Positions 9,462 to 64,000 of a stretch of 64,000 nucleotides of DNA are shown here, one piece after another. Below the pieces are notes generated by a model. It saw only the letters and a program-made list of their open reading frames with translations, searched no databases and had not been told where the DNA came from. Source of the DNA: Roseovarius bejariae (GTDB lineage: Bacteria; Pseudomonadota; Alphaproteobacteria; Rhodobacterales; Rhodobacteraceae); NCBI RefSeq assembly GCF_009669325.1, contig NZ_SZWE01000001.1, positions 2,609,501-2,673,500 of the forward strand, read 5' to 3'. A program made the position numbers and the translations under genes. Numbering within the stretch: the stretch's first letter is position 1; the number at the start of each line of letters is the position of its first letter.

Positions 9462-9475
9462 GGTGCGCGGAGACA

Positions 9476-9499
9476 TGCCGGGCTCAATTGAGCCCGGCA
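9476..9499. terminator. Palindromic terminator between convergent genes
   Basis: TGCCGGGCTCAA / TTGAGCCCGGCA is a perfect 24-bp palindrome placed between the stops of the sirtuin (+) and copper-chaperone (-) genes. There is no long T run, so efficiency is uncertain. Confidence 0.6.
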
Positions 9500-9510
9500 C
9501 ATCAATGATA

Positions 9511-9987: not shown

Positions 9988-10029
9988 TGGTCTCTCCTGA
10001 ACATATGGTGTCTGGTCGATGATAATGGA

Positions 10030-10380: not shown

Positions 10381-10430
10381 GCGGATAGATATAGGCCCTC
10401 GGTCGCCGGGAAGAAAAGCGACAAAACGCA

Positions 10431-10458
10431 ACAGCCCCGACCGATTGGACGGGGCTGT
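10431..10458 (-). terminator. Probable rpmB terminator
   Basis: ACAGCCCCG / CGGGGCTGT stem of 9 bp, 28 bp beyond the rpmB stop. Reading on the minus strand it is followed by TGCGTTTTG, a weak T tract. Confidence 0.6.
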
Positions 10459-10485
10459 AAAATCACATCGTTAAGATCGTGCTGA

Positions 10486-10776
10486 TCAGGCGTTCGCGGC
10501 CTGAGCCTTGGCGATTTCTTTCTTCACTTTCAAAGCGTTGGCCGACAGCTCGGTGTCTTTTGCCTTGGCAAGATAGCCGTCCAGACCACCGCGGTGATCG
10601 ACGCTGCGCAGGGCAGACGCAGAGATTCGCAGCTTGATCGCGCGGCCCAGGGTTTCGGACTGCAACGACACGTCCTGCAGGTTGGGCAGGTAGCGGCGCT
10701 TGGTTTTGTTGTTGGCGTGGCTGGAGTTATTGCCAACCATCGGGCCTTTTCCGGTCAGTTCGCAGCGGCGCGACAT
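10486..10776 (-). CDS. rpmB: 50S ribosomal protein L28
   Basis: 96 aa, the length usual for alphaproteobacterial L28. [20 protein letters not shown], then [12 protein letters not shown] and the basic [14 protein letters not shown], are diagnostic. The start at 10776 has GAGGAAAAG upstream; the open frame further 5' is ruled out by the family N-terminus. Stand-alone gene with its own terminator. Its promoter must lie in the 10.8-11.0 kb spacer, which carries several GTAC-centred palindromes. Confidence 0.97.
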
Positions 10777-10935
10777 GGGCTTTTCCTCGTGTTTGCTGGG
10801 GCTTGACGAAGCCCTGCTCAATACAAACGGGCACCGCCATAGGCAGCGCCCCGAATTCATCACAGGGTCTTTAGGGGGAAACTATGGGGGCGTCAAGGGA
10901 TTCGGGGCGGCCTTTGTCAAGGGCACGTCGCATTT

Positions 10936-10950
10936 CGTACGAGTCGTACG
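10936..10950. repeat. Palindrome CGTACGA-G-TCGTACG, copy a
   Basis: Perfect 7+1+7 inverted repeat in the rpmB/cupin divergent spacer. An identical 15-mer occurs at 10999-11013, centre to centre 63 bp (six helical turns). Confidence 0.6.
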
Positions 10951-10963
10951 TTCAAGGGGGGAG

Positions 10964-10975
10964 TTTCGTACGAAA
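10964..10975. repeat. Palindrome TTTCGTACGAAA
   Basis: Perfect 12-bp palindrome midway between the two CGTACGAGTCGTACG sites. It shares the TTTCGTAC half-site of the inverted repeats near 2.65 and 46.6 kb. Confidence 0.55.
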
Positions 10976-10998
10976 ATCCGGGATGTGTAAAATTATTT

Positions 10999-11013
10999 CG
11001 TACGAGTCGTACG
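10999..11013. repeat. Palindrome CGTACGA-G-TCGTACG, copy b
   Basis: Second identical copy of the 15-bp palindrome, 50 bp before the cupin start codon. Position and symmetry suit an operator for a dimeric regulator controlling the cupin gene, rpmB or both. Confidence 0.6.
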
Positions 11014-11062
11014 ATCTGGCATTAGTTTCGGGGCATGCGGCGGTGACAAGGGAGGCGCGACA

Positions 11063-11470
11063 ATGAAGATCATGCGAGCGGGGGAACGCCCCAGCAAGCT
11101 GGCCAATCCGGAGTGGTTTACCGGGCGGGTCTGGCAGGAGCCGGTGGTGGAGGCCGAGGCGCCGGCGCGGCTGCACGCCTTGCGGGTGACCTTCGATCCC
11201 GAAGCGCGGACGGCCTGGCACACCCATCCCTTGGGGCAAACCCTGCATGTGCTGTCGGGGGTCGGACTGGTGGGGCTGCGCGGCGAGCCGCCAAAGGTGA
11301 TCCGGCCGGGTGATACAGTGTGGATCCCGCCCGGGGTGGAGCATTGGCATGGTGCCGCGCCCGACAGCCAGATGTGCCATCTAGCGATGCAGGAAGCCGA
11401 CGACACGGGCCGGGTGGCCGAGTGGCTGGACCAGGTGAGCGATGCGGAGTATCGGCGGACGACGCGATAG
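11063..11470 (+). CDS. Cupin-domain protein
   Basis: 135 aa, a single cupin_2 barrel. Metal-binding motif 1 is seen as TAWHTHPLGQTLHVLSG (two His, Gln, His) and motif 2 as PGDTVWIPPGVEHWHG. It resembles small cupins of the YdbB/quercetinase-like group that bind one metal ion; the reaction is unknown. GGGAGG precedes ATG 11063. Monocistronic, with palindromic sites in its upstream region. Confidence 0.85.
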   Translation: MKIMRAGERPSKLANPEWFTGRVWQEPVVEAEAPARLHALRVTFDPEARTAWHTHPLGQTLHVLSGVGLVGLRGEPPKVIRPGDTVWIPPGVEHWHGAAPDSQMCHLAMQEADDTGRVAEWLDQVSDAEYRRTTR

Positions 11471-11587
11471 CGCGGGCGGTTTACCCATTGGTAAGCCTTC
11501 TGTGGCGCAATACGATGTGTCGCGTGAGGTGATTTGACTGTGCATCTTGGGGGCGTTGCCCCCGTCGCCCTGCGGGCGTCTCCCCCA

Positions 11588-11640
11588 GGGTATTTGGCCC
11601 AAGAAAAAACCGCCCCTGCTTTTTCTTGGCAAAAATACCC
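11588..11640. terminator. Long imperfect hairpin between convergent genes
   Basis: GGGTATTT...CCAAGAAAAA pairs with TTTTTCTTGG...AAATACCC, giving a two-part stem around the loop CCGCCCCTGC. A/T runs on both sides make it a candidate bidirectional terminator for the cupin (+) and reductase (-) genes. Its arms share the GGGTATTTNGG...AAGA character of the short dispersed repeats at 14.5, 16.4 and 37.0 kb. Confidence 0.6.
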
Positions 11641-11674
11641 ATGGAGCCACGCCTGATCCGGACGGCAGGGTTTG

Positions 11675-12658
11675 TTATTTCAAGCGATCACGCCCGTGGT
11701 TCGACATCAGGTCCAGGTCGGGCCCGATGGGCACGATGCGATGTGGATTGATGGTGTCGTGGCTGTAGTAATAGTGCCGTGTGATGTGGTCGAAATTCAC
11801 CGTCTCGGCCACGCCGGGCCATTGGTAAAGTTCGCGCAGGTAGCCCCAGAGGTTGGGGTAATCGACGATCCGGGCGCGGTTGCATTTGAAATGCCCGTGG
11901 TAGACGGCATCGAAACGGATAAGGGTTGTGAAAAGCCGCCAGTCGGCCTCGGTCAGGCGGTCGCCCATGAGATAACGGTTGGTCGAGAGCCGCTCTTCCA
12001 GCCAGTCGAGGCTGTCGAAGAGGGGTTTGACGGCCTCTTCATAGGCCTCTTGCGTGGTGGCGAAGCCGGATTTGTAAACGCCGTTGTTGACGGTGTCGTA
12101 GATGCGGGCATTCACCGGCTCAATCGCTGCGCGCAGGTCTTGCGGCCAGTAGTCATCGGTGTTGCCGGTAATGTCGTCAAAGGCCGAATTGAACATGCGG
12201 ATGATCTCGGCGGATTCATTGGAGACAATGGTTTCGCGGGTCTTGTCCCAGAGGATCGGCACGGTGACGCGGCCCGAGGCATCGGGCTTGGCCTTGGTAT
12301 AAAGGTCGCGGGCGAAGGGCAGGTCGTAAAGTTGGTCTCCGGTGGCGCCGGGGTAGTCTGGGCGAAACTCCCACCCGTCCGATAGCATGTCGGGGTGTAC
12401 GACGGAGACGCCGATGTGTGGCTCAAGGCCCTTGAGGGCGCGGAAGATCAGCGTGCGGTGCGCCCAGGGGCAGGCGAGCGAGACATAAAGGTGATACCGA
12501 TCTGATTCCGCTGGAAAGCCGCCCTCGCCGCTGGGGCCCGCCGCGCCATCGGTCGTGATCCAGTTGCGGAATTTCGAGGTGTCGCGCTGAAATTTCCCGC
12601 CGGTGCTGTCGGTATCGTACCAGCAGTCGTGCCATTCGCCGTCGATCAAGAGACCCAT
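11675..12658 (-). CDS. Glutathionyl-hydroquinone reductase (YqjG/ECM4 family)
   Basis: 327 aa, the family length. The catalytic Cys sits in SLACPWAHR near residue 55, the xi-class GST signature CPWAHR. It reduces glutathionyl-hydroquinones to hydroquinones with GSH, cytosolic. The C-terminal alpha-helical GST domain follows, with LTEADWRLFTTLIRFD and LWGYLRELYQ. ATG 12658 with AAAGGAGGA is unambiguous. Monocistronic. Confidence 0.92.
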   Translation of the reverse strand: MGLLIDGEWHDCWYDTDSTGGKFQRDTSKFRNWITTDGAAGPSGEGGFPAESDRYHLYVSLACPWAHRTLIFRALKGLEPHIGVSVVHPDMLSDGWEFRPDYPGATGDQLYDLPFARDLYTKAKPDASGRVTVPILWDKTRETIVSNESAEIIRMFNSAFDDITGNTDDYWPQDLRAAIEPVNARIYDTVNNGVYKSGFATTQEAYEEAVKPLFDSLDWLEERLSTNRYLMGDRLTEADWRLFTTLIRFDAVYHGHFKCNRARIVDYPNLWGYLRELYQWPGVAETVNFDHITRHYYYSHDTINPHRIVPIGPDLDLMSNHGRDRLK

Positions 12659-12961
12659 TGTGCCATCCTCCTTTACGGCCAATCTAGGGGCGTCCGCGAG
12701 GGCCAGACAGGCCCGCCGCCGCGCAGGGGGCGTGCGGGGCTGCACATGTCGCTGGTTGGTGGTCGGGGGGCGTTTCCCGGTTTGCGCGTAGGCCGTGGGA
12801 GGGCTATACCTGAAGTGACGATGCCCCGAGGGGCCGGAAAGGTGTGCAGGCGGGATCGACCCAATCCGGGGGTCTTGTGTCTGGAATCGTCAAGGCGGCG
12901 GATGTGCCGTGACCCTCCTTTCCGGGGCCTTTCGGGGTGAAACGGCAAAAGGGGATATCCC
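12659..12961. other. Spacer upstream of the cobalamin operon
   Basis: 303 bp between divergent genes, without a credible ORF. CCGGAAAGG (12834-12842) can pair with CCTTTCCGG (12917-12925) around a 74-nt loop, and GCCCC-GA-GGGGC forms a small hairpin just before it. This is a possible structured leader for the operon, but the conserved boxes of a B12 riboswitch were not found. Confidence 0.4.
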
Positions 12962-13186
12962 ATGAAACACGCAATCCTTCTGGTGGCGCTTTTGGCGGCA
13001 AACGGGGCACAGGCGCATCCCGGCCATTTGGCCGAAGTGGCGGGCCATGGTCATTGGCTGGGGGCCGCGGCCTTGGGCGCGGCGATTGCCATCGGGCTTT
13101 GGGCCGGTCTTAAGGGCCGCAAGGACGAGGCGGCGGATGAGGCCGAGGGCGAAGAGCCTGCCGACGAAGAGTTGCAGGAGGCCTGA
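12962..13186 (+). CDS. Small His-bearing single-pass membrane protein (DUF6732-like)
   Basis: 74 aa: a signal sequence (MKHAILLVALLAANGAQA), a short segment HPGHLAEVAGHGHW with four His, a transmembrane helix (LGAAALGAAIAIGLWAGL), then a Lys-Arg stop and an acidic tail (EAEGEEPADEE). The four histidines would face the periplasm next to the membrane. It is the first gene of the cobalamin operon, 4 bp before cbiX, so a role in cobalt handling is a natural guess, not a demonstrated one. SD sequence weak. Confidence 0.6.
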   Translation: MKHAILLVALLAANGAQAHPGHLAEVAGHGHWLGAAALGAAIAIGLWAGLKGRKDEAADEAEGEEPADEELQEA

Positions 13187-13190
13187 GCGC

Positions 13191-14450
13191 ATGGTCAAGA
13201 CCGGTGTGATGATCTGCGGGCATGGTTCGCGCAGCCAGTCGGCGGTGGATGAATTCGCGACGCTGGCCGAGAGCTTGCCCGCTTACCTGCCCGCGGATTG
13301 GGAAATGGAGTATGGCTATCTGGAATTTGCCAACCCGGTCATTCGCGACGGTCTGGACAAGCTGCGCGCGGCGGGGTGTGAGCGGATCCTGGCGGTGCCG
13401 GGGATGCTTTTTGCCGCGATGCATTCCAAGAACGACATTCCCACGGTTCTGAACACCTATGCCACCAAGCACGGGATCGACCTGCGTTATGGCCGGGAGT
13501 TGGGGGTGGACCCCAAGATGATCTCCGCCGCAGGTGGGCGTATCCAGGAGGCCGTGGAGCGCGCCAATGCCGAGGCCGGTGAGGTGTCGTTGCATGATAC
13601 CTGCCTTGTGGTGATCGGGCGCGGCGCGTCCGATCCGGATGCCAATGGCAATGTATCCAAGATTGCCCGGATGTTGCAGGAGGGTATGGGCTTTGGCTGG
13701 TGCGAGGTGGGCTATTCCGGCGTGACCTTCCCGCTGGTGGAACCCTGCCTGCAGCATGTGGCGAAGCTGGGCTACAAGCGGGTGATCGTGTTCCCGTATT
13801 TCCTGTTTTCCGGCATCCTGATCGACCGGATTTATGGGTTCACCGACCAGGTGGCCGCCGAGCATCCGCATATCCAGTTTTTCAAGGCGGGGTATCTGGG
13901 TGATCACTCGAAGGTTCTGGAAACCTTCGCTGAGCGGGTGATGGAACAGACCAGTGCGACGCCGCCGCCCAACTGCGGTACCTGCCAGTACCGCACGCAG
14001 GTTCTGGCCCTTGAAGGCGAGGGCGCGACGGAAATCACGCCCGAGCAGCGCCGCGCCCTGGCCGAGGCCAAGGGGGCGGGGCATGCGGCCTTTGGCGATG
14101 TGCCGCCGCCGACCTGTGTGCTGTGCAAGTACCGTACCACCATTCTGGGCTTCGAGGCCGAGGTGGGCGCGGTGCAGGAAAGCCATCACCACCATGTGGA
14201 AGGGCAAGGGGCCAGTGCGCCGGGGTCGAACGTGGCCGATTGCAGCCTCTGCGACAATTTCTGCACCGGGCTTTGCCGTTTGGAAGGGCAGGGGCATCAC
14301 CATCATCATGATCACCATGATCATGGGCATGGTCACGATCATCACCACCACCATGATCACAATCACGACCACCATCATCATCACCATGCCGAGTATCCGC
14401 ATGCCGACCATCCGCATGGGCCGGAGAGTGCGCGGAAAACCCGGGCCTGA
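13191..14450 (+). CDS. cbiX: Sirohydrochlorin cobaltochelatase, long form with Cys motifs and His-rich tail
   Basis: 419 aa, far longer than minimal CbiX. Residues 1-260 contain two CbiX/HemH-like halves: MICGHGSRSQ with the catalytic His, then VPGMLFAAMHSKNDIP and VFPYFLFSG. The C-terminal third carries CGTCQYRT, CVLCKYRT and CSLCDNFCTGLC, two to three clusters able to bind Fe-S or metal as in Bacillus megaterium CbiX. It ends in about 25 His residues mixed with Asp/Gly. It inserts Co2+ into sirohydrochlorin, the early-cobalt route. The His tail probably stores or concentrates cobalt or nickel. ATG 13191 immediately follows the small membrane-protein gene. An upstream in-frame start overlapping that gene is rejected. 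Confidence 0.9.
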   Translation: MVKTGVMICGHGSRSQSAVDEFATLAESLPAYLPADWEMEYGYLEFANPVIRDGLDKLRAAGCERILAVPGMLFAAMHSKNDIPTVLNTYATKHGIDLRYGRELGVDPKMISAAGGRIQEAVERANAEAGEVSLHDTCLVVIGRGASDPDANGNVSKIARMLQEGMGFGWCEVGYSGVTFPLVEPCLQHVAKLGYKRVIVFPYFLFSGILIDRIYGFTDQVAAEHPHIQFFKAGYLGDHSKVLETFAERVMEQTSATPPPNCGTCQYRTQVLALEGEGATEITPEQRRALAEAKGAGHAAFGDVPPPTCVLCKYRTTILGFEAEVGAVQESHHHHVEGQGASAPGSNVADCSLCDNFCTGLCRLEGQGHHHHHDHHDHGHGHDHHHHHDHNHDHHHHHHAEYPHADHPHGPESARKTRA

Positions 14451-52754: not shown

Positions 52755-54314
52755 ATGCGTGGTGCGGACAGTCTTGTGCAAACGTTGGCCTCGGCGGGGG
52801 TGACGCGTATCTTTGCCCTGTCGGGGAACCAGATCATGCCGATTTTCGATGCCTGTCTGGAGGCCGGGATCGAGTTGATCCACACCCGGCACGAGGGGGC
52901 GACGGTGTTCATGGCCGAAGCCTATGCGCAACTGACCGGGCAGGTCGGCGTGGCGCTTGTCACCGCCGGGGGCGGTCTGGCCAATAGTGTCGGGGCGGTG
53001 GCCTCGGCGCGGGCGTCGGACACGGCCCTGTTGTTGCTGTCGGGGGATAGCCCGCGAGGGCAGGACGGCACCGGGGCCTTTCAGGAAATGGATCAGGTGG
53101 CAATCACGCAGGCGGTCACGAAATGGTCGTTCCGGGCCGAGGCGCCGGATGGCCTTGGGGCCGATGTGGCGCGGGCCATGGCGTGTGCCAGGGCGGGGCA
53201 ACCGGGGCCGGTGCACCTTGCGTTGCCGTTCGATGTGGTCAAGGGCGCGGCTGATGGGGCCGTGCCTGTGGTCGAACTCACCGAAGACAGATCTGCGCCG
53301 GAGGATGTTGAGGCGGTCAGAACCCTTGTGGCGGAGGCCGAGCGGCCCTTGGTGTTGTTGGGGCCATCCCTGACGCCAACGCGGCACCCCGGGCTGTGCG
53401 ATGAATTGTCCGCGGCGTTGAACGCGCCGGTTTTCGCCATGGAAAGCCCGAGGGGCCTGCGCGATCCGGCCATGGGGCGGATTGGCGAGGTGGTGGCGCG
53501 GGCCGATCTGGTGTTGTGCCTTGGCAAGCGGGTGGATTTCACCCTTGGCTTCGGGGCCGGGGAGGCCGGATGGATCACGGTGAGTGCCGATGAAGCCGAT
53601 CATGCGATGGCGGCGGGAAACCTTGGCGTGCGGCACCGGGCCGGGGTCGTGACCCCGGCACTGGGCATGGCGCGGGCCTTGTGCGACGGGCCTGTGGCGC
53701 AAGTGCGGGATGACTGGCAGGCCGAGGCGGCGCGATTGGTGTCAATCCGGCCTGACGGGACGGGCGATGGCCTGACCTCGGCCACGTTATGCGCGGCGGT
53801 GCAGGAGTGCGTGGCGGGCTGTGACGAAAGCGTTGTCATTTGCGACGGCGGGGAGTTCGGGCAATGGGCACAGGCCCTGACCCGTGGCACGGCGCGGGTG
53901 ATCAACGGCGTGTCGGGCGCGATCGGGGCTGGGTTGCCCTATGCCATGGCGGCGCATGTGGCGCGGCCCGGGGCGACTGTTTTCGCGCTGTCGGGGGATG
54001 GATCCATCGGGTTTCATTTCGCGGAGTTCGAGACCGCCGCGCGGCACGGTCTGCCGTTCGTCATGGTGATCGGCAATGACCAGCGATGGAACGCCGAGCA
54101 TCAGATCCAGTTGCGCGATTATGGCGAGGAGCGGCTTTCGGGCTGTGGGTTGACGGCGGCGCGGTATGACTTGGCCGCCGAGGCCATGGGAGCGCATGGC
54201 GAGTTCGTGACACATGCGGCGGATTTGCGGCCCGCCCTGGAGCGGGCCGTGGCGAGTGGCAAACCCGCCTGCGTGAATGTTATGATCGAAGGTCTGCCTG
54301 CGCCGGTGGTTTAG
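52755..54314 (+). CDS. Thiamine-diphosphate-dependent enzyme, acetolactate-synthase-like
   Basis: 519 aa. N-terminal PYR domain with the catalytic Glu in IHTRHEGATVFMAEAYAQLTG-type sequence (RHEGAT), a central Rossmann-like domain and a C-terminal PP domain with GDGSIGFHFAEFETAA and the metal-binding ND about 25 residues on. It lacks the fused regulatory parts and has no small subunit gene nearby, so true acetolactate synthase is unlikely. Decarboxylation or C-C cleavage of a 2-oxo acid or acyl-CoA is expected. Last gene of the tct operon, 4 bp after tctA. Its end overlaps the convergent SulP gene by 4 bp. Confidence 0.85.
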   Translation: MRGADSLVQTLASAGVTRIFALSGNQIMPIFDACLEAGIELIHTRHEGATVFMAEAYAQLTGQVGVALVTAGGGLANSVGAVASARASDTALLLLSGDSPRGQDGTGAFQEMDQVAITQAVTKWSFRAEAPDGLGADVARAMACARAGQPGPVHLALPFDVVKGAADGAVPVVELTEDRSAPEDVEAVRTLVAEAERPLVLLGPSLTPTRHPGLCDELSAALNAPVFAMESPRGLRDPAMGRIGEVVARADLVLCLGKRVDFTLGFGAGEAGWITVSADEADHAMAAGNLGVRHRAGVVTPALGMARALCDGPVAQVRDDWQAEAARLVSIRPDGTGDGLTSATLCAAVQECVAGCDESVVICDGGEFGQWAQALTRGTARVINGVSGAIGAGLPYAMAAHVARPGATVFALSGDGSIGFHFAEFETAARHGLPFVMVIGNDQRWNAEHQIQLRDYGEERLSGCGLTAARYDLAAEAMGAHGEFVTHAADLRPALERAVASGKPACVNVMIEGLPAPVV

Positions 54315-56026
54315 GTGTCGCGCAGGGCCTGCCATGCCTCATATTGCGACAGGTAGACGGTGCCACCCATCTCTTGCAGGAAATGGCTACGTTGCAGGCG
54401 GTCCATGACCGGGCCTTTGACCTCGGACAGGTGCAGTTTGACGCCCATGGCCTTGAGGCGGGTATTGATGGCTTCAAGGCTTTCAAGCGCAGACATGTCC
54501 ACCTCGTTCACCGCGGTAAATTGCAGGATGACGTGTTTGACGGCGCAATCCTCGGTGATGCGGTCGGCGATGTAATCTTCGAGGAACCGGGCGTTGGCGA
54601 AGTAGAGGCTTTCATCCACCCGCAGGGTGACGACGCTTGGGCAGGTGGTGACGCTGTGGCGCTTGATGTTGCGGAAATGTTCGGTTCCCGGGACAAGGCC
54701 CACCTCGGCCACGTGGGGCTTCGAGGTTTTGTTGAGGTGCAGGGCGATGGACAGGATCACCCCCGCCGAAACGCCGATTTCCACGCCGAACCCGAGGGTC
54801 AGGAGGATGGTCGTCAGGATCGCCGCGAAATCCGCGCCGGAATAGGCCCACGCGCGTTTCAGGATCGACAGGTCCACGAGGCTGAGCACGGCGACGATGA
54901 TGGTGGCGGCCAGCGTGGCCTTGGGCAGGAAGTAGATGAGCGGGGTGAGGGCGAGGGCCGCGATGGCCAGCCCCACGGCGGTGAAGGCCCCGGCCGCGGG
55001 GGTGGCGGCGCCCGCGTCGAAGTTGACGACCGAGCGCGAGAAACCGCCGGTGACGGGATATCCGCCCGAGATCGCCGCCCCGAGGTTGGCGGCACCCAAG
55101 CCGATGAGTTCCTGATTGGGGTCAATGCGTTGGCGTCTCTTGGCGGCGAGCGTTTGCGCGACCGAGATCGATTCCACGAAGCCGATGATCGAGATCAGCA
55201 CGGCAGGCAGGATCAGCGCCTTGATCAGGTCAAGCGAGGTGTCGGGCAGGGTGAAGGGCGGCAGGGATTGCGGCACGGTGCCGACGATTGCCACGCCCTG
55301 AGTGTCAAGCCGCAAGACCCCTGCAAGTGCCGTGGTGACGACAACGGCGGCGACGGGGCCTGCCTTGGTCAGCACATCCGCGAGGCGGGGGCCGAGGCCG
55401 AGGTTGAGCAGAAGCGGTTTGAGGCCCTTTCGGACCCAGAAAAGGAATGCCGCAGCCGAGCCGCCGATCAGCAGGGTGATCAAGTTGAAGGTGCCCAAGC
55501 CGCTCCAGAGGCTATGGAGCAGGTGGGTCAGGGTATGGCCCGAGGTCTTTATGCCGAGGATATGGCCCATCTGGCTGAGCGCGATGAGGATGCCGCTGGC
55601 GTTGATGAACCCGGCGATCACCGGATGCGACAGGAAGTTCGCGAGAAACCCCAAGCGCAACAGGCCGAGGCCCAGAAGGATGGCCCCCGACAGCCCCGCG
55701 AGAGTCAGGGCCGCCGTGGCATAACCTGCGGTGCCTTGGGCCGCGACCTCGCCAATGGCGGCGGCGGTCATCAGCGAGACCACGGCCACCGGCCCCACGG
55801 CCAGAACGGTGGAGGTGCCGAATAGCGCGTAGAGCACGATCGGCAGGATCGAGGCGTAAAGCCCCGCCTCGGGTGGCAACCCGGCCAGAAGCGCATAGGC
55901 CAGCGATTGCGGGATCAGCATGATCGTCACGATCACGGCCGCAACCATGTCCTGCGAGAAGGTCTCGCGGGTGTAGCTGCGAGCCCATGTCAGGATGGGC
56001 AGGTAGCGGGCGAGCGTGCGGGGCAT
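54311..56026 (-). CDS. SulP-family anion permease with STAS domain
   Basis: 571 aa. SulP core of about 11-14 helices, including the signature QDMVAAVIVTIMLIPQSLAYALLAG and PVTGGFSRSVVN. C-terminal STAS domain from about residue 440 (VVTLRVDESLYFANARFLED ... DMSALESLEAIN). Imports sulfate, bicarbonate or dicarboxylates. ATG 56026 is chosen by the family N-terminus. The sulfur genes beside it favour sulfate, weakly. Confidence 0.92.
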   Translation of the reverse strand: MPRTLARYLPILTWARSYTRETFSQDMVAAVIVTIMLIPQSLAYALLAGLPPEAGLYASILPIVLYALFGTSTVLAVGPVAVVSLMTAAAIGEVAAQGTAGYATAALTLAGLSGAILLGLGLLRLGFLANFLSHPVIAGFINASGILIALSQMGHILGIKTSGHTLTHLLHSLWSGLGTFNLITLLIGGSAAAFLFWVRKGLKPLLLNLGLGPRLADVLTKAGPVAAVVVTTALAGVLRLDTQGVAIVGTVPQSLPPFTLPDTSLDLIKALILPAVLISIIGFVESISVAQTLAAKRRQRIDPNQELIGLGAANLGAAISGGYPVTGGFSRSVVNFDAGAATPAAGAFTAVGLAIAALALTPLIYFLPKATLAATIIVAVLSLVDLSILKRAWAYSGADFAAILTTILLTLGFGVEIGVSAGVILSIALHLNKTSKPHVAEVGLVPGTEHFRNIKRHSVTTCPSVVTLRVDESLYFANARFLEDYIADRITEDCAVKHVILQFTAVNEVDMSALESLEAINTRLKAMGVKLHLSEVKGPVMDRLQRSHFLQEMGGTVYLSQYEAWQALRDT

Positions 56027-56102
56027 GGGCGGGACCTTTCGGGAAAAGGGAAGACGGGCGCAGGGCGGGACCTGCACCTGTCATGCTTGAAAACGGGCGG
56101 AA

Positions 56103-56987
56103 TCAGAGCTTGTTGACCGGCACCTTGAGCATCGGGTTGCCGTCATCATCCGAGGGCACGTCGCCTGCCCGCATGTTCACTTGCAGCGACGGGATGATCA
56201 GGCGTGGCATGGCCAGCGTGGCATCGCGTTCGGTGCGGAACTTGATGAATTCCTCGCGGGTCTTGCCGCCGCCGACGTGGATGTTGTGCTCTTTCTCTTC
56301 GGCCACGGTGGTTTCCCACGCGATGTCACGCCCGTTGGGGCCGTAATCGTGGCACATGAAAAGGCGCATGGCGTCGGGCAGGGCCAGCACCTTCTGGATG
56401 CTGTCGTACAGTGTGCCCGCGTCGCCGCCGGGGAAATCGGCCCGGGCCGAGCCGCCATCGGGCATGAACAGCGTATCGCCCACGAAGGCCGCATCGCCCA
56501 TGACGTGGGTCATGCAGGCGGGGGTGTGGCCGGGGGTATAGATGGCGAAGGCCTGCATGTTGCCGATCATGTAGGTATCGCCATCTTCGAACAGGGCGTC
56601 GAACTGCGATCCATCGCGTTGAAACTCGGTGCCTTCATTGAAGATCTTGCCGAAGGTATCCTGCACCACGAGGATATTGGAGCCGATGCCGATTTTCCCG
56701 CCCAGTTTGTCCTGAATATAGGGCGCGGCGGAAAGGTGGTCGGCGTGGACGTGGGTTTCGATGATCCACTCCAGCTTGAGCCCCTGTTTTTCGACCTGCG
56801 CGATCAGTTCGTCGGCGTGGTCATAAGTGATGCGGCCCGCGGCATAATCGATGTCCATGACTGAATCCACGATGGCGCAGCTGTCCGAAGAGGGATCTTT
56901 GACGATGTAGGAGATCGTGTTCGTGGCCTCATCAAAGAAGGCCTGAACCTTGGGCTTGATCTCCATGTTGACGGGGTACTCTGTCAT
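56103..56987 (-). CDS. blh: Metallo-beta-lactamase-fold persulfide-dioxygenase-like protein (Blh type)
   Basis: 294 aa. THVHADHLSAAPYI is the metal motif; further ligands are in YTPGHTPACMTHVM, FVGDTLF and FMCHDYG. This is the Blh/ETHE1-like group that oxidises glutathione or other persulfides to sulfite. Blh genes commonly sit with YeeE/YedE-type transporters and the BigR/SqrR repressor. The two transporter genes are here, 24 bp upstream, but BigR is not in this window. Confidence 0.85.
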   Translation of the reverse strand: MTEYPVNMEIKPKVQAFFDEATNTISYIVKDPSSDSCAIVDSVMDIDYAAGRITYDHADELIAQVEKQGLKLEWIIETHVHADHLSAAPYIQDKLGGKIGIGSNILVVQDTFGKIFNEGTEFQRDGSQFDALFEDGDTYMIGNMQAFAIYTPGHTPACMTHVMGDAAFVGDTLFMPDGGSARADFPGGDAGTLYDSIQKVLALPDAMRLFMCHDYGPNGRDIAWETTVAEEKEHNIHVGGGKTREEFIKFRTERDATLAMPRLIIPSLQVNMRAGDVPSDDDGNPMLKVPVNKL

Positions 56988-57011
56988 GGGGTGGACTCCT
57001 TTGTCGGTTTG

Positions 57012-57461
57012 TCAGGATGTGCCGTGCGCGCTGTGGCGCGCGGCAAGGTTTTGCAGGGCCTTGGCAAGCATAATGCCTGCGATCAGGGATGCGGTGAAGA
57101 TCAGGACCTCGGGTTTGAAGGCGCCCAAGGCGGGCAGGGCCGCGCCGGGGCAGAAGCCCGCGATGCCCCAGCCCACGCCGAAGACGGCCGAGCCGCCGAG
57201 AAGACGGGCATCGATGGTGCGGTTTTGCGGGACGTGGAAGGTATCGTCCATGACGGGTTTCTTCGGGCCTTTACCAAAGATCAGGCGGTAGCCAATGAAG
57301 GTGACAACAAGGGCACCGCCCATGACAAAGATGAGCGAGGGATCCCAGGAACCTGCCACGTCGAAGAAATTGAGCACCTTGGCGGGGTTGGCCATGCCCG
57401 AGATCATGATGCCGAGACCAAAGAGAAGCCCGATGAGGTAGGTGATGATGATACGCAGCAT
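57012..57461 (-). CDS. YeeE/YedE-family (DUF6691) transporter half
   Basis: 149 aa, four helices. GLLFGLGIMISGMANPAKVLNF and GGSAVFGVGWGIAGFCPGAAL carry the Gly-rich motifs and the conserved Cys of sulfur-compound transporters. Works as a pair with the preceding gene, like PmpB/PmpA. Probably moves sulfide-, thiosulfate- or persulfide-type sulfur for the Blh enzyme. Confidence 0.85.
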   Translation of the reverse strand: MLRIIITYLIGLLFGLGIMISGMANPAKVLNFFDVAGSWDPSLIFVMGGALVVTFIGYRLIFGKGPKKPVMDDTFHVPQNRTIDARLLGGSAVFGVGWGIAGFCPGAALPALGAFKPEVLIFTASLIAGIMLAKALQNLAARHSAHGTS

Positions 57462-57465
57462 TGGG

Positions 57466-57897
57466 TTACCCTCCGATCACGTGGCGCAGCACGTAAACCG
57501 TGATGCCCGTAAAAAGCATGAAGGTGAGTGTGGCGGCGATGGAGCGCGGCGAGAGCCGCGCATTGCCGCAGACGCCATGGCCACTGGTGCAGCCCGACCC
57601 GAAGGTGACGCCAATCCCCACGAGGATGCCGCCGACGATCAGCATCGGGGTGCTCACGGGGACCTCGATGTTGGGCATTTGGCCAGAGGTGACCAGCATC
57701 AGCGCGGGGGCTGTGACCATGCCGGCCAGAATGGCGGCGCGCCATGTCCAATCGCGCGGCGAGGTGGGCTGCATGAAGCCGGCCAGAATGCCGGTGGCTC
57801 CCATGACGCGGCCCAGTGTCAGCATCAGAAGGACACTGGCCAAGCCGATCAGCGTACCGCCGATCAGGGATTGTAGGGGGGTGAAGTCGGTGATCAT
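57466..57897 (-). CDS. YeeE/YedE-family transporter half
   Basis: 143 aa, four helices. SLIGGTLIGLASVLLMLTLGRVMG and GILVGIGVTFGSGCTSGHGVCG (two conserved Cys near the substrate path) define the family. First gene of the three-gene sulfur operon, ATG 57897. Its partner begins 4 bp downstream. Confidence 0.87.
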   Translation of the reverse strand: MITDFTPLQSLIGGTLIGLASVLLMLTLGRVMGATGILAGFMQPTSPRDWTWRAAILAGMVTAPALMLVTSGQMPNIEVPVSTPMLIVGGILVGIGVTFGSGCTSGHGVCGNARLSPRSIAATLTFMLFTGITVYVLRHVIGG

Positions 57898-58160: not shown

Positions 58161-59426
58161 GTGGTGATTCCCTTTCATGTGACGGAGATGCTGCGCCGGG
58201 TGATGGCGCGCTATGATGCGGAAAAGACCCCGCAGAAGATGGCCCCCAACGACGATGCCTTCAGCCTGCTGCGGCCCATGCGCAAGATCAGTCAGGCGAC
58301 GGTTGAAAAATACTGGGCGCGGTTGAGGCCCACGGCCTGCGCTGCGGATCAGGCAGAACTGGCCGATCCGGTGACGATGGCGCAGGCGGAGCAATACAGC
58401 GCCAATATCGAGAATTTCATCGGCACGGTGAAACTGCCGGTGGGGATCATCGGGCCGCTGCGCCTGACGGGGATGAATGCCAACGGCGATTATCACGTGC
58501 CGCTGGCCACCAGCGAGGCGGCTTTGGTGGCCTCATATGCGCGGGGGGCGGCGGCGGCCACGAAGGCGGGCGGAATCAGCACCGCCGTTTTGTACGAGGG
58601 CGTCATTCGCACGCCTGCCTTCGTGATGAAAGACCTGCTGAGCGCCGGGCAGTTCGTGGAATGGGTGGTGCGCAATGTCGAGGATTTGCAGGCGGCGGCA
58701 GAGGCCACGACGCGGCATGGCAAACTGGTGTCGCTGGAGCCGTTCATCGACAACAACATCGCCTTCTTGATCTGCCGCTATACCACCGGGGATGCAGCGG
58801 GGCAGAACATGGTGACGATTGCCACGGATGCCCTGTGCCAACGCATTGCCGAAGCCTGCCCCGTACCGATCGAGGCGTGGTATATCGAGGGGAATTTCTC
58901 GGGCGACAAGAAAGCCTCGGCGCTTGGCATGGTCACGGGGAGGGGCCGGAAGGTAAGTGCCTCGGTCATCTTGCCCCGCGAGGTGGTGGAGCAGGTGCTT
59001 GGCACCACGGTCGAAGACATGCTGGCCTATGGGCGGGTGGCGAATTTGGGCTCGCTTCTGTCGGGGCAATTGGGGGCGCAGGCGCATTATGCCAACGGCT
59101 TGGCCGCGCTTTACATCGCCACCGGGCAGGATGCGGCCTGTGTCGCCGAAAGCGCCATGGGGGTCACGCGGATGGAGCCACGGGGCGAGGATTTATATGT
59201 TTCGGTGACCATGCCGAATATCCTTGTGGGATCGGTCGGCGGCGGCACCGGATTGCCCAGCCAGTCGGCGGCGCTGAATATCCTTGGATTGAAGGGTGCG
59301 GGCCATGGTGCGGCCCTGGCCGAGATCGCGGCGGCCACCTGCCTGTGCGGCGAGATTTCCATTGTTGCGGCGATTTCGGCGGGCGATTTCACCCGCGCGC
59401 ATGAAAATCTGGCGCGGCACAGATGA
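58161..59426 (+). CDS. Hydroxymethylglutaryl-CoA reductase
   Basis: 421 aa. Catalytic residues are all recognisable: ENFIGTVKLPVGIIGPL, the Glu in ATSEAALVAS, the Lys in SGDKKASALGM, the Asp in GQDAACVAES and the C-terminal His in FTRAHENLARH. The DKK motif and the single soluble domain resemble class I enzymes without the membrane anchor. It reduces HMG-CoA to mevalonate with two NAD(P)H. No other mevalonate-pathway gene is near, and ispH (20.8 kb) shows the MEP route. GTG 58161 (or 58164) is preferred, as GGAG lies 8-12 bp upstream. Coupled to the next gene by ATGA. Confidence 0.9.
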   Translation: MVIPFHVTEMLRRVMARYDAEKTPQKMAPNDDAFSLLRPMRKISQATVEKYWARLRPTACAADQAELADPVTMAQAEQYSANIENFIGTVKLPVGIIGPLRLTGMNANGDYHVPLATSEAALVASYARGAAAATKAGGISTAVLYEGVIRTPAFVMKDLLSAGQFVEWVVRNVEDLQAAAEATTRHGKLVSLEPFIDNNIAFLICRYTTGDAAGQNMVTIATDALCQRIAEACPVPIEAWYIEGNFSGDKKASALGMVTGRGRKVSASVILPREVVEQVLGTTVEDMLAYGRVANLGSLLSGQLGAQAHYANGLAALYIATGQDAACVAESAMGVTRMEPRGEDLYVSVTMPNILVGSVGGGTGLPSQSAALNILGLKGAGHGAALAEIAAATCLCGEISIVAAISAGDFTRAHENLARHR

Positions 59427-60334
59427 GTTTCGCAGCAGCCCTTTGGACCTATCAGGCCCAACGCTTTCCCTTGAAGAAGACCGCGCCCTTGCTGGCGGTG
59501 TTTTCGGCGGCGAGCATCTGTGTTTCGTCGCAACTGGCAGGGCGGGATTTGCCCGGCTGGCCCGCCTTCGTGGCCGGGTTCGTGGTGGCCATGGCGCTGT
59601 TTTTCCAGATGCGGGTTTGTGACGAGTGGAAGGACGCCGAGGATGACCGGCTTTATCGCCCCGAACGGCCCATTCCGCGCGGACTGATCGCGCAGAGCAC
59701 GGTCTTGTGGCTTGGGGCGGCGACGTTGCCCTTGGCGGCGGGGGCGGTGTGGCTGTGGCATCCGCCCGCCTTGTGGCTGTTGGCGCTGGTCTGGCTGTGG
59801 CTGGCGGCGATGACACTGGAGTTCGGCGCGCCGGAGTGGCTCAAGGCGCGGGCGGTTTTATACCTTCTGAGCCACATGATGATCATGCCGCTGATCGACC
59901 TGCTGTTGACAGGGTTGGAGTGGGTGCCCGGCGGCGGGGCCGCGCCGCAGCTTTGGCTGTTTCTGGCGCTCTCGTTCGTGAATGGCTGTGTGCTGGAGAT
60001 CGGTCGGAAGCTGTGGGCGCCGGAGAACGAGATTGTGGGGGTCGAGACCTATTCGGGCCTTTGGGGGCCGGGGCGGGCGGCGCTGATCTGGATGGGCTGT
60101 GTTGTACTGTCGGCCGCGTTGTTGGTGGGCACGGGGTTTGCCACTGGCGTTGGATGGGTCACGGTGGGTTTGGCGGCTGTGGCGCTTTTGGCCTGCCTTT
60201 GGTCGGCTTGGCGGTATCGCGCGACCCCCACGGCCAAGGCGCAGGCGCGGATGGATACCGTGGCCGGGCTTTGGGTGTTTTTCTGTTATGCAACGGCGGG
60301 GTTCCTGCCCTTTGTCATCGGGTGGTTTGAATGA
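59423..60334 (+). CDS. UbiA-family prenyltransferase, divergent second motif
   Basis: 303 aa, eight to nine transmembrane helices. The first Asp-rich motif is clear: VCDEWKDAEDDRLYRPERPI, with the PRP.P.G following. In the place of the second (DxxxD) motif it has EIGRKLWAPENEIVGVETYS, which has Glu but no Asp. It should transfer an isoprenyl group to an acceptor in the membrane. Start and stop overlap both neighbours by 4 bp, so it is translated with the HMG-CoA reductase and the phosphotransferase. Confidence 0.85.
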   Translation: MSFAAALWTYQAQRFPLKKTAPLLAVFSAASICVSSQLAGRDLPGWPAFVAGFVVAMALFFQMRVCDEWKDAEDDRLYRPERPIPRGLIAQSTVLWLGAATLPLAAGAVWLWHPPALWLLALVWLWLAAMTLEFGAPEWLKARAVLYLLSHMMIMPLIDLLLTGLEWVPGGGAAPQLWLFLALSFVNGCVLEIGRKLWAPENEIVGVETYSGLWGPGRAALIWMGCVVLSAALLVGTGFATGVGWVTVGLAAVALLACLWSAWRYRATPTAKAQARMDTVAGLWVFFCYATAGFLPFVIGWFE

Positions 60335-62787
60335 GATTTGTTTTGACTTCGGATCAGGCGAAGGACGCGGAAGTGGTGGGTGGCAAGGCGGCGGCGCTGT
60401 CGCGACTGGCGCGCGAAGGGTTTGCCCCGCCCGCGTTTTTCGTGATCTTGGCCGATGCCTTTGACCACGGGAAAACTGGGCCTGTGATGGGGAAGGGCCT
60501 GAAGGCCGAAGTCACGCGCGCCTTGGCAGATTTGGGCGCGGGGCCTTATGCGGTGCGCAGTTCGGGGCGCGCCGAGGATGGGGCCGAGCATAGCCATGCC
60601 GGGCAGTTCGATACGGTGTTGAATGTCGAAGCGGGTGAGATTTTGGCGGCAGCCAAAAAGGTCTGGCAATCGGGGTTTTGTGACACGGTGGAGACCTACC
60701 GCGCCAAGACCACGGGCGACGGGGCGGAGGCCCCGGCGGTGATCGTGCAACGGATGGTGGACGCCCGCGCCTCGGGTGTCGCCTTTTCGGCGGATCCGGT
60801 GAGCGGGCAGCGCGGGCGTGTCGTGATCTCGGCCATCCAAGGGCTCGGGGAGCGCTTGGTTTCGGGCGAGGCGGATGGCGAGAATTGGGCCTTGGATGGT
60901 GCGGGGCAGGTGGTGACCGCCCCCGATGCACCGCAAGCCCTGAACGCGGAGGAGGCCCGCGCGGTGGCCGATCTGGCGCGGCGGACCGAGGCGGGTTTTG
61001 GCCACCCGCAGGATATCGAATGGGCGATGGATGCGGAGGGCCTGCATATCCTGCAAGCGCGGCCCATCACCACGGCGCTTTTGCCTGCAGCACAGCCCGA
61101 CAAGACCCTGACCATTTTCGACAATTCCAACATCGTCGAAAGTTATCCGGGGATGGTCAGCCCGCTGACCTACTCCTTTGCCCTGCATGTTTATGCCCGG
61201 GTCTATCGCGCTTTCGTGCGGCTTTTAGGGGTCCGCATGGCGGTTGTGGCCGAGAATGCCGCCGTCTTCGACAACATGCTGGGGCGTGTCGATGGGCGGG
61301 TCTATTACAACCTTGTGAACTGGTATCGCGCACTGGCGCTGTTGCCGGGGTTTGCCCTGAACCGCGACCACATGGAAACCATGATGGGGGTGTCCGAGCC
61401 GATGCCGCGCGAGGTGACCGATGCCATCGGGCCGCCGCCGGCCACGGGGCTGGCGCGGGTGCGGGAATACGCCAATCTGGGGCGTGTTGGCGCGGGGCTT
61501 TTGTGGCAGGCTATTCGGTTGCCGCGCACCCGGCGAGATTTCTATGCGCGGTTGAATGCGGCGTTGGAGGGCGATCTGGAAATTGCCACGGCCAATGCCA
61601 GTGAATTGGCGCGCGAATACCGGCGGATTGAAAGTACACTTTTGGACCGTTGGGATGCGCCCCTAGTCAATGATTTCCTGTGCATGATGGCCTTCGGGGC
61701 CTCGCGCAAGGTGATGGAAAAATGGCTGGGCGAGGCGGGGCTACAGCTTCATAACGACGTGATGATCGGGCAGGGGGATATCGTCTCGGCCGAGCCTGCA
61801 CAACGGATCGCCAAGATGGGCGCGATGGTGCGGCAGGCCGGGCTGGCCGAGGCATTGCGGGCGAAGGGCATGGCGGCGCTGGAGGATGCGCCGGAGATCC
61901 GCGCCGAGGTTGAGGCGTATCTGGAGCGGTTCGGCGATCGCTGCACCGAGGAGTTGAAGCTGGAAAGCATCCCCCTGAGCGAGGACCCCAGTAGCCTTTT
62001 GGCGGCGGTTGCGGCCTCGGCCGGGCGTGCGGAGGGGGCCAAGCACGCGGTGCGGGAGCCGGATTGGCAGGCGCTTTTCGCGGGTAAGCCGGTGAAGCGC
62101 GTTCTGGCGCGGTGGATCATCGGCTGGACCAAGGCGCGGGTGCGCGACCGCGAGAACCTGAGGTTCGAACGCACACGGATTTTCGGCCATGCGCGGCGGG
62201 TGTTTCTGGGGATTGGCCGCGAGTTGACAGCACGCGGGCACCTGGCCGCGCCGCGTGACGTGTTTCACCTGACCACGCAGGAGGTTCTGGGTGCCGTCGA
62301 GGGGTTCAACCTGTCGCCGGATTTGAAGGGCATCGTGGCAATGCGGCAGGCCGAGGACGCGGCATCAAGCGGGCGGCCCGATCCGCCCGAGCGGATCGAG
62401 GTACGAGGGCCTGCGATCCTGCCCCACTGGCAGGAGGACGAGGGCCCGCGCGACGACAGCCGTCGCAAAACCGGCACGGGCTGTTCGGCGGGGCAGGTGC
62501 GGGCCAGGGCGCGGGTGATCCGCGATCCGCGCACCGAGGCGCTGGAGCCGGGCGATATTCTGGTTGCGCGGCATACCGACCCCGGCTGGATCGCGGTGTT
62601 TTCCAATGCTTCGGCCATCGTGGTTGAGCGCGGCTCGCTTTTGTCGCACTCGGCGATCGTGGCGCGGGAGTTGGGCATTCCATGTGTTGTCGGCCTGAAG
62701 GGCGCGACGCAGTGGATCGAGGACGGTGAGACATTGGCCGTCAACGGGGCCACGGGCGAAGTGGAGCGCGTTGATGACGGGAAGTGA
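60331..62787 (+). CDS. ATP-grasp / phosphohistidine-swivel phosphotransferase (PEP-synthase/rifampicin-phosphotransferase type)
   Basis: 818 aa. Residues 1-260 are a PPDK_N-type ATP-grasp domain (VGGKAAALSRLAREGF, AVRSSGRAEDG, VIVQRMVDARASGVAFSADP, IEWAMDAEGLHILQARPITT). Residues 700-818 form the swivel domain with the phospho-accepting His in LLSHSAIVARELGIPCVVG. The 440 residues between are unlike the PEP/pyruvate-binding TIM barrel, and no such barrel follows the swivel. That order (ATP-grasp, novel domain, swivel) is that of rifampicin phosphotransferases, which phosphorylate a small-molecule hydroxyl. Overlaps the next gene by 14 bp. Confidence 0.82.
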   Translation: MRFVLTSDQAKDAEVVGGKAAALSRLAREGFAPPAFFVILADAFDHGKTGPVMGKGLKAEVTRALADLGAGPYAVRSSGRAEDGAEHSHAGQFDTVLNVEAGEILAAAKKVWQSGFCDTVETYRAKTTGDGAEAPAVIVQRMVDARASGVAFSADPVSGQRGRVVISAIQGLGERLVSGEADGENWALDGAGQVVTAPDAPQALNAEEARAVADLARRTEAGFGHPQDIEWAMDAEGLHILQARPITTALLPAAQPDKTLTIFDNSNIVESYPGMVSPLTYSFALHVYARVYRAFVRLLGVRMAVVAENAAVFDNMLGRVDGRVYYNLVNWYRALALLPGFALNRDHMETMMGVSEPMPREVTDAIGPPPATGLARVREYANLGRVGAGLLWQAIRLPRTRRDFYARLNAALEGDLEIATANASELAREYRRIESTLLDRWDAPLVNDFLCMMAFGASRKVMEKWLGEAGLQLHNDVMIGQGDIVSAEPAQRIAKMGAMVRQAGLAEALRAKGMAALEDAPEIRAEVEAYLERFGDRCTEELKLESIPLSEDPSSLLAAVAASAGRAEGAKHAVREPDWQALFAGKPVKRVLARWIIGWTKARVRDRENLRFERTRIFGHARRVFLGIGRELTARGHLAAPRDVFHLTTQEVLGAVEGFNLSPDLKGIVAMRQAEDAASSGRPDPPERIEVRGPAILPHWQEDEGPRDDSRRKTGTGCSAGQVRARARVIRDPRTEALEPGDILVARHTDPGWIAVFSNASAIVVERGSLLSHSAIVARELGIPCVVGLKGATQWIEDGETLAVNGATGEVERVDDGK

Positions 62788-63874
62788 GATCGAAAGCCGC
62801 GCCGCGTTTGACCACATCCGCTATGCGCAACTCTGGGAAGATGCCGATGTGTTGACCCAAGGCTTGGGGGAACAAGCGGGCCAGACGCTGGTTTCGATTT
62901 GCTCGGCGGGGGATAATGCACTGGCCATGCTGACGCTGGACCCCGCGAAGGTGGTGGTGGTGGACCTCTCCCCGGCGCAGATCGCCTGTTTGCGGGTGCG
63001 GATCGGGGCCTATCGGGCGTTGTCGCACGCGGAGTTTCTGGAACTCATGGGATCGCGGCCAAGTGCGCGGCGCGGCGCGCTTCTGGCGCGGGCTTGTGAG
63101 GGTTTGGATGCGGAAACACGCGCCTTTTGGGAGGATCTTGCACCCGAAGTCGAGGCGCATGGGCTTGGTGGTGTGGGTAAATTCGAACGCTATTTCCGCA
63201 TCTTCCGCCGCTGGCTTTTACCGCTTGTTCATTCGCGCCGGACCATCGCGGCGATATTCGAGCCGCGCGACCCCGAGGCGCGGGAAGAATTTTTTGACAA
63301 ACGCTTTAACACATGGCGTTGGCGGCTGTTGATGCGGGTCTTTTTCTCGCGTTTCGTCATGGGGCGGATGGGCCGTGACAAGGCGTTTTTCGACCATGTG
63401 GAGGGCAGCCCGGCACAGCATGTGGCGCGGCGGTTGCGCCATGCCGGGGTTGGGACCGACCCGTCGCAAAACCCATACCTGCACTGGATCATGACAGGCA
63501 CCCATGGTCCGGCGTTGCCGATGGCGTGGCGGGAAGAGCACTTCGAGGTGATCCGCGACAGGCTGGGCCGGTTGGACATTCGGCCCGGATCGTTGGAAGC
63601 CTTTGTTTCAACGGGGGAAAAGGCGCATGGGTTCAACCTTTCGGATATTTTCGAATACATGTCACCGGATGTGTTTGCGCAGGTTTACGGTACGATCCTC
63701 GGGGCATCGGCACCGGGGGCGCGGCTGGTTTATTGGAACATGATGGCGCCGCGCCGGGTGCCCAAGGTTTATGCCGACCGGGTCGAAAGCTTGAGCGACC
63801 TTGAGGATCGCCTGAAGGCACAGGACATGGCGTTTTTCTATTCCGATTTCGTTGTGGAAGAGGTGCGCGGGTGA
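62774..63874 (+). CDS. DUF3419 / BtaA-like S-adenosylmethionine 3-amino-3-carboxypropyl transferase
   Basis: 366 aa. IRYAQLWEDADVLTQGL, VSICSAGDNALAML and VVVVDLSPAQIACLRVRIGA are the SAM-binding core of DUF3419, whose studied member BtaA moves the aminocarboxypropyl group of SAM to diacylglycerol in betaine-lipid synthesis. The C-terminal part (FNLSDIFEYMSPDVFAQVY, LVYWNMMAPRR) is also conserved. No BtaB methyltransferase follows directly, so the product may differ from DGTS. ATG 62774 starts inside the end of the phosphotransferase gene. Confidence 0.85.
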   Translation: MTGSEIESRAAFDHIRYAQLWEDADVLTQGLGEQAGQTLVSICSAGDNALAMLTLDPAKVVVVDLSPAQIACLRVRIGAYRALSHAEFLELMGSRPSARRGALLARACEGLDAETRAFWEDLAPEVEAHGLGGVGKFERYFRIFRRWLLPLVHSRRTIAAIFEPRDPEAREEFFDKRFNTWRWRLLMRVFFSRFVMGRMGRDKAFFDHVEGSPAQHVARRLRHAGVGTDPSQNPYLHWIMTGTHGPALPMAWREEHFEVIRDRLGRLDIRPGSLEAFVSTGEKAHGFNLSDIFEYMSPDVFAQVYGTILGASAPGARLVYWNMMAPRRVPKVYADRVESLSDLEDRLKAQDMAFFYSDFVVEEVRG

Positions 63875-64000
63875 GCGTGGCGGTGCAAATCGGTTTGGCG
63901 GTCGCTTCGGTTGCCGTGTTGCTGGGGCTGATGGCGCTTGTCCGCAAGGGAGCACGTGCCATGGGCCTTGGCTCCGAGGTGCAGAGGAAACTGGTGCATG
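63871..64000 (+). CDS. Partial gene: putative dolichol/phytol-kinase-like (SEC59/VTE5) membrane protein, N-terminus
   Basis: Only about 43 codons are in the window; the gene continues beyond the right edge. GTG 63871 overlaps the upstream stop (GTGA). One transmembrane helix (VQIGLAVASVAVLLGLMALV) is followed by LGSEVQRKLVHV, which matches the E-x-x-RKxxH motif at the start of the CTP-dependent dolichol/phytol kinase and related CDP-diglyceride synthase families. The assignment rests on this short motif and its context. Confidence 0.5.
   Translation, partial: MSVAVQIGLAVASVAVLLGLMALVRKGARAMGLGSEVQRKLVH

Follow-up and report, generated by a model that had tools for sequence, protein, structure and literature searches.

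A seven-gene operon starts near the right end of a 64,000-nucleotide stretch of Roseovarius bejariae DNA (the window, G000:C1:2609501-2673500 of a 3.5-Mb genome that is 99% complete). Its genes are coupled and inherited together, with optional cytochrome P450 and sulfotransferase genes beside them. We propose that the operon probably makes one small membrane-linked isoprenoid product with a 3-amino-3-carboxypropyl (homoserine-type) group derived from S-adenosylmethionine (SAM), a statement meant without insisting on every step suggested below. It is very likely that the seven genes serve one dedicated pathway, as the earlier note on this DNA had supposed from five of them; an aminocarboxypropyl group in the product is likely, and the isoprenoid nature of the product is credible to a slightly lesser degree. 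The enzyme superfamilies themselves are known, whereas the pathway appears to be new. We call it new because the mevalonate pathway, betaine lipid synthesis, RPH/PigC ligation and OleC each fail a defining feature and phytol activation leaves two genes unexplained. In addition, no description of the seven-gene set was found in the open-access literature, most subscription papers lying outside that search, in agreement with the earlier note, which knew of no such pathway.

The seven genes are as follows; positions beyond 64000 extend the window coordinates into the DNA to its right (L002).

58161-59426, + strand: class I HMGR-like reductase, 421 aa (PF00368, E 4e-108)
59423-60334, + strand: UbiA-family membrane prenyltransferase, 303 aa (PF01040, 50.1 bits, cut-off 34.2)
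60331-62787, + strand: PPDK-type enzyme, 818 aa, with ATP-grasp and phospho-His swivel domains, RPH/PigC/PEP-synthase superfamily (PPDK_N and PEP-utilizers)
62774-63874, + strand: DUF3419 protein of the BtaA superfamily, putative SAM-dependent 3-amino-3-carboxypropyl transferase of its own subfamily (PF11899, 195 bits, cut-off 28.2)
63871-65175, + strand: kinase-like multi-spanning membrane protein, so called from database names (first 130 bases in the window, to 64000; whole gene L002:6372-7676)
65191-66033, + strand: tandem GNAT, 280 aa, by fold and matches (L002:7692-8534, wholly beyond the window)
66026-67444, + strand: AMP-dependent (AMP-binding) ligase, 472 aa, by family match (L002:8527-9945, wholly beyond the window)

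Gene and family matches confirmed the five coupled genes of the window, whose successive overlaps are 4, 4, 14 and 4 bp. The extension to the right, which the earlier note had thought possible, adds the tandem GNAT and the ligase. A gap of 15 bp separates the kinase-like gene from the GNAT gene in the window genome, and the GNAT and ligase genes overlap by 8 bp. At its end (~52 codons, before L002:7676) the kinase-like gene reads out of frame compared with its two nearest relatives and no longer overlaps the GNAT gene, which may reflect a genuine frameshift or a mistake in the assembly.

A scan with the DUF3419 protein over one genome per species yielded 139 relatives, and the best 80 of the 139 were used as loci. 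When the seven proteins were run against them by tblastn, all seven genes were collinear and on one strand in 74/80 loci; in the remaining six (L020, L051, L063, L068, L073 and L078) the contig begins inside the operon. With start codons picked by script, the successive junctions overlap in 64/74, 70/75, 79/80, 73/80, 76/80 and 69/80 measurable cases. The lowest best-segment identity among the loci ranges from 35% for the kinase-like protein up to 64% for DUF3419, and most flanking genes differ between loci while the order of the seven stays. Because order and strand are shared by 80 relatives and the junctions mostly overlap, the coupling goes far beyond chance. The arrangement is therefore not peculiar to this strain, and conserved order, strand and overlapping junctions support the single expression unit that was suggested from the window, as far as gene arrangement can indicate it. 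According to record titles, the hosts belong to Rhodobacterales (65), Hyphomicrobiales (11), Rhodospirillales (1), Sphingomonadales (1) and Oceanospirillales (Halomonas, 1), with no order given for one. They include common marine and soil genera such as Ruegeria, Roseovarius, Yoonia, Paracoccus, Bosea, Devosia and Halomonas.

Co-inheritance was followed for three of the genes in 198 genera of the family, one genome each, with a score above 550 bits defining a cluster-type HMGR. Cluster-type DUF3419 occurs in 14/198 genomes; 12 of these 14 also carry the cluster-type HMGR and 13 the PPDK-type gene, one as a partial match at a contig edge. The genomes missing a partner gene, G884 and G931, are 73% and 64% complete, respectively, and have DUF3419 near a contig edge. 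Neither cluster-type HMGR nor PPDK was found without DUF3419 in the 198 genomes at the thresholds used; the HMGRs of G748 and G796 (311 and 232 bits) belong to a different type. The three genes thus travel together. The cluster HMGR of G756 was matched as two overlapping pieces (G756:C1:2551296-2552557), so the gene may be decaying or mis-assembled there.

In a class sample of 385 genomes, cluster-type DUF3419 was found only in the window genome and in G558, after which the score drops from 420 to 72 bits; the order of G558 is represented by two genomes, G558 itself being the one that matches. In an evenly sampled phylum (398 genomes), the window genome alone matched at E 1e-22. A pattern scan of viral contigs gave no match. 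At E 1e-10 there were thirteen matching plasmid records; identity was 26-30% in 12 and reached 44% only in Roseinatronobacter, which was also the sole match of another query at E 1e-30. Roseinatronobacter sp. S2 carries all seven genes on a 137-kb plasmid (L152, L157; NZ_CP121116.1), with the HMGR gene spanning the record start. When six proteins from 38 loci were joined for a quick tree, Halomonas grouped with Chelativorans (Shimodaira-Hasegawa-like approximate likelihood ratio test, SH-aLRT, 100). The plasmid copy, the tree placement and the scattered distribution indicate a patchy unit that is transferred and kept whole. The operon thus appears to move horizontally, with at least one transfer suggested by the six-protein tree.

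The isoprenoid theme of the earlier note was strengthened by the UbiA gene and by two P450 types next to the operon. P450 type A and a sulfotransferase (PF13469) adjoin 16/80 loci; in 15, among them that of a Rhizobiaceae bin (L069), they are upstream and divergent, and in L050 they lie downstream. Type B, about 25% identical to type A, adjoins 7/80 loci either upstream or downstream, once as a fragment (L053). The two types never occur together, giving 23/80 loci with a P450 in all; a further P450, in L010 (28% identity, at a distance of 1.6 kb), is probably there by chance and was not counted. The best NCBIfam P450 models are pentalenene oxygenase and albaflavenone monooxygenase, both below cut-off, followed by a P450 of ribosomally synthesised and post-translationally modified peptides (ApyO). 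The best solved structures for type B include CYP120, CYP51 and taxadiene hydroxylase, and those for type A include a lutein-pathway P450, CYP175A1 and two further P450s, one of which we take to be CYP170. CYP3A and BM3 types rank lower, as do P450s that act on fatty acids, drugs and peptides. Two unrelated P450 types with mostly terpene, carotenoid or sterol relatives point to, although they do not prove, an isoprenoid product that is open to hydroxylation and sulfation.

Based on these genes we propose the following steps, in no fixed order. The AMP-dependent ligase would activate an acid as its CoA ester, and the HMGR-like enzyme would reduce some acyl-CoA, not HMG-CoA, to an alcohol. Activation of the alcohol, or the joining of parts by phosphoryl transfer, may fall to the kinase-like membrane protein together with the PPDK-type phosphotransferase, while the UbiA protein would attach or handle a prenyl chain from the methylerythritol phosphate (MEP) pathway of the host. 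DUF3419 would move the aminocarboxypropyl group from SAM, the amine of which the tandem GNAT might acylate. In some species, the product would be hydroxylated by the P450 and sulfated by the sulfotransferase.

The substrate of the reductase was considered at the residue level in 73 cluster proteins, the window protein included (human numbering for S684, K735, R590 and K692). The catalytic residues E119, K250, D324 and H414 are kept in 73/73. The protein shares its family with class I HMG-CoA reductase (PDB 6hr7, 1dq8), together with the catalytic Glu/Lys/Asp/His and the DKK and GGGT motifs. However, among the four residues that we take to contact the HMG carboxylate, only R590 and K692 are kept in 73/73. 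At S684 and K735, where the class I enzyme has Ser and Lys, all 73 carry Glu and Ala (E243 and A294 in the window). HMG-CoA synthase (PF08540) was not found in the window genome, with the control positive in 4/14 named genomes; genes of leucine degradation were not searched for. Mevalonate-pathway GHMP kinases and decarboxylase were not found there either, the sole GHMP protein over the cut-off being IspE of the MEP pathway, with one further match (E 0.04) below it. From the changed contacts and these negative searches we infer that the cluster reductase probably acts on an acyl-CoA other than HMG-CoA, which would be a new natural substrate. The supply of mevalonate towards isopentenyl diphosphate (IPP), which the gene families had first suggested, finds no support in these results.

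Among 16 other bacterial HMGR homologues compared by sequence, 14 also lack the Lys at K735, only L119 and L120 keeping it. The Ser at S684 is kept in L109, L110, L114 and L117-L120; L119 and L120 keep both contacts. The L120 gene is part of a mevalonate operon whose other genes include those for HMG-CoA synthase, IPP isomerase and a protein resembling mevalonate kinase (132 of 163 bits). The NCBIfam model TIGR00533 was dropped as a test of identity: the cluster HMGR scores 315 of 441.8 bits, but the controls L120 (288) and L119 (285) fail the cut-off too, which makes the model uninformative. A stand-alone homologue from a gammaproteobacterial genus, presumably Vibrio (L105-L108), is 50-52% identical and has a similar pocket change, an acidic residue (Asp or Glu) standing at S684 and the Lys at K735 being absent. 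Unlike in the cluster, none of the other six operon genes was found in 18-kb stretches around it (four of the eight matching phylum-sample genomes examined). Ten more bacterial homologues without the Lys at K735 (L109-L118) were noted, and no isoprenoid gene was seen among ten neighbouring genes sampled from six of these ten loci.

A true HMG-CoA reductase, making mevalonate from leucine-derived HMG-CoA as the building block itself or as feed for the prenyl chain, is consistent with the strong PF00368 match, the intact catalytic residues and the two retained carboxylate contacts. The frequent loss of K735 among bacterial homologues keeps HMG-CoA more possible as the substrate. Nevertheless, we consider this explanation unlikely, given that no HMG-CoA synthase was found, that no GHMP kinase other than IspE exceeds the cut-off, and that Glu and Ala replace the Ser and Lys of L119 and L120 throughout the cluster.

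We regard as similarly unlikely the earlier note's proposal of a structural membrane polar lipid of the homoserine or betaine type, in which a BtaA-like enzyme would transfer the head group to a glycerolipid or a prenyl-glycerol. BtaA-family proteins transfer an aminocarboxypropyl group derived from SAM, and the cluster protein shares their superfamily (PF11899, 195 bits). A UbiA protein and a multi-helix membrane protein in the same unit would also suit a lipid, as would a PSD-like gene in the locus L151 described below. However, in a tree of 18 cluster rows and 25 others (five rows of odd length, including Sinorhizobium meliloti, were left out) the cluster proteins formed their own clade, set apart by one very long branch (SH-aLRT 100). 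To our knowledge, none of the 25 other proteins has been assayed. BtaB, queried with the methyltransferase adjoining the S. meliloti DUF3419 gene, was found in 0/80 locus flanks at E 1e-15, and the cluster has a GNAT instead. In addition, the P450 and sulfotransferase add-ons better fit a specialised metabolite than a bulk lipid, and the distribution (14/198 family genomes) is patchy. The aminocarboxypropyl part of the suggested head group gains support from the DUF3419 family and from the PSD-like gene in L151; its betaine part is not supported.

A divergent form of the core was found in L151, a 14.9-kb contig of G558. Its genes (6870-13658) encode a PPDK-type protein (41% identity), DUF3419 (47%), UbiA (~25%) and GNAT (23% over 175 residues). 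The four-gene core is followed by a gene of the phosphatidylserine decarboxylase (PSD) family (PF02666, 1.6e-47), a family not found in the flanks of the 80 loci. Placed next to an aminocarboxypropyl transferase, a PSD-like enzyme could decarboxylate the aminocarboxypropyl to an aminopropyl group, which in this divergent core, at one locus, would be its role. The L151 UbiA matches NCBIfam PRK13592 at 141 bits, below the cut-off. At E 1e-20 the relatives of the L151-type DUF3419 number at least 3380, Terriglobales and Syntrophobacteraceae being among the named matches listed.

The remaining enzymes bear on a third explanation, the salvage or activation of a prenol. Plant phytol kinases feed tocopherol synthesis and are the model for it. 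An acid would be converted via its CoA ester to an alcohol, a phosphate and a diphosphate, and UbiA would transfer the chain onto an acceptor, quinone-like or otherwise. The coupling of the AMP ligase, reductase, kinase-like protein, phosphotransferase and UbiA in one unit fits this scheme, and some sources name the fifth protein a phytol kinase. However, it leaves DUF3419 and the GNAT unexplained, and L151 has PPDK, UbiA, DUF3419 and GNAT genes on a contig without kinase, reductase or ligase. We consider it rather improbable.

The name of the fifth protein bears directly on that scheme. Databases call it diacylglycerol/polyprenol kinase, phytol kinase or dolichol kinase, and others hypothetical. 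No kinase family in Pfam or NCBIfam matched any of 17 kinase-like members, although these libraries may hold no phytol-kinase model. Its conserved His, Asp and Lys-Ser-x-Glu-Gly motif resembles that of phytol and dolichol kinases. It is presumably longer than VTE5 or dolichol kinase, with an extra C-terminal membrane part. Foldseek returned nothing under E 0.001 for its predicted fold and a second search gave middling Z scores for membrane proteins, which we do not take as evidence; no dolichol-kinase or CTP-transferase structure was among the 50 best matches listed in either search. The label "phytol/dolichol kinase" given in the earlier note is backed by database names and this motif, and the likeness to plant or cyanobacterial phytol kinase (VTE5) and dolichol kinase is one of names and motif, with no Pfam or NCBIfam match behind it.

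The PPDK-type protein keeps His773 in 76/78 sequences, the other two being gapped. With RPH, the PigC/RedH ligases and PEP synthase it has in common the ATP-grasp and phospho-His swivel domains, but it scores under each equivalog cut-off: 270/999 bits for RPH, 288/1350 for RedH, 265/1300 for PigC and 206/740 for PEP_synth. As all the models listed (the best 25 of 27 matched) are under their cut-offs, the enzyme would represent a separate subfamily, as either a phosphotransferase or a ligase. A three-domain plan like that of the 818-aa protein is described in PMC4844700.

The first Asp-rich motif of the UbiA protein (D67/E68/D71/D75) is present in 75/75 sequences. The ligase is an AMP-binding enzyme, and the OleC beta-lactone synthetase models are far under cut-off (154/900 and 148/850 bits). 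The predicted structure of the GNAT (predicted local distance difference test, pLDDT, 91) matches tandem small-molecule GNATs at E 1e-13, resembling MAB_4324 and MshD (mycothiol synthase).

We consider it very improbable that the GNAT and DUF3419 produce a diffusible signal containing an N-acyl homoserine-like moiety in place of a membrane lipid. Such signals are common in Rhodobacterales, to which 65/80 hosts belong, and the operon would provide the aminocarboxypropyl group (putatively from SAM) as well as an acyltransferase and an enzyme to activate the acyl group. However, no LuxI-type synthase was among the 50 GNAT structure matches listed, no regulator family recurred in three or more loci among flanking open reading frames (ORFs) of at least 80 aa, and the match to tandem MAB_4324/MshD-type folds led us not to adopt homoserine lactone synthesis as the principal explanation.

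Several observations weigh against the single aminocarboxypropylated isoprenoid product that we favour. On the 14.9-kb contig of L151 neither an HMGR gene nor the kinase-like and ligase genes were found, so the seven genes may not be one indivisible pathway. L151 is a single locus, and its UbiA (27.1 of 34.2 bits) and GNAT (19.7 of 20.7 bits) are below the Pfam cut-offs. In the cluster UbiA the second region reads E-x-G-R-K...E, whereas the usual second motif is Asp-rich, and with that motif missing the protein may not be a prenyltransferase. The kinase role draws on names and a motif, and the predicted fold has no convincing PDB match. The altered HMGR pocket is no proof of a different substrate; the enzyme may use HMG-CoA, the Lys at K735 being gone in most other bacterial homologues as well. 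P450 genes stand beside only 23/80 loci, and neither a P450 nor a sulfotransferase adjoins the operon in the window genome. Finally, the product and its chemistry are read here from the genes alone.

Taking L151 and the accessory genes together, we put forward a wider proposal more tentatively. The operon might represent an undescribed, widespread pathway to aminocarboxypropylated and optionally hydroxylated or sulfated terpenoid lipids, in which an HMGR homologue has been re-purposed for another acyl-CoA. The PPDK-DUF3419-UbiA-GNAT core would then be older and wider than the seven-gene form, in places ending with decarboxylation to an aminopropyl group. If so, a class of bacterial isoprenoid metabolites has been overlooked in genera that are common in the sea and in soil. 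A second natural substrate would be added for HMG-CoA reductase, which is the statin target and the cholesterol enzyme in humans, and the class I HMGR genes of bacteria without a mevalonate pathway would have a possible explanation. As a compact operon present in cultured strains, for instance Roseovarius nubinhibens ISM (L005) and Ruegeria halocynthiae (L012), the unit is directly testable.

The two genes 3' of the ligase, which we read as kbl and tdh (the Pfam search covered the first only), lie outside the seven-gene unit. kbl recurs in 1/80 relatives, and tdh is strong in that same relative and weak (31% and 27%) in two. Upstream, on the - strand at 54311-57897, are genes for a sulfate permease, a metallo-beta-lactamase-fold protein, DUF6691 and sulfur transport (PF04143), two of which, used as queries, recur in 2/80 relatives. 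ABC-type ATPase ORFs, read from the sequence of one member, occur near 13/80 loci (e.g. L015, L025 and L038) at varied distance and strand; since the family is very common, we take their recurrence as chance, though perhaps they serve export.

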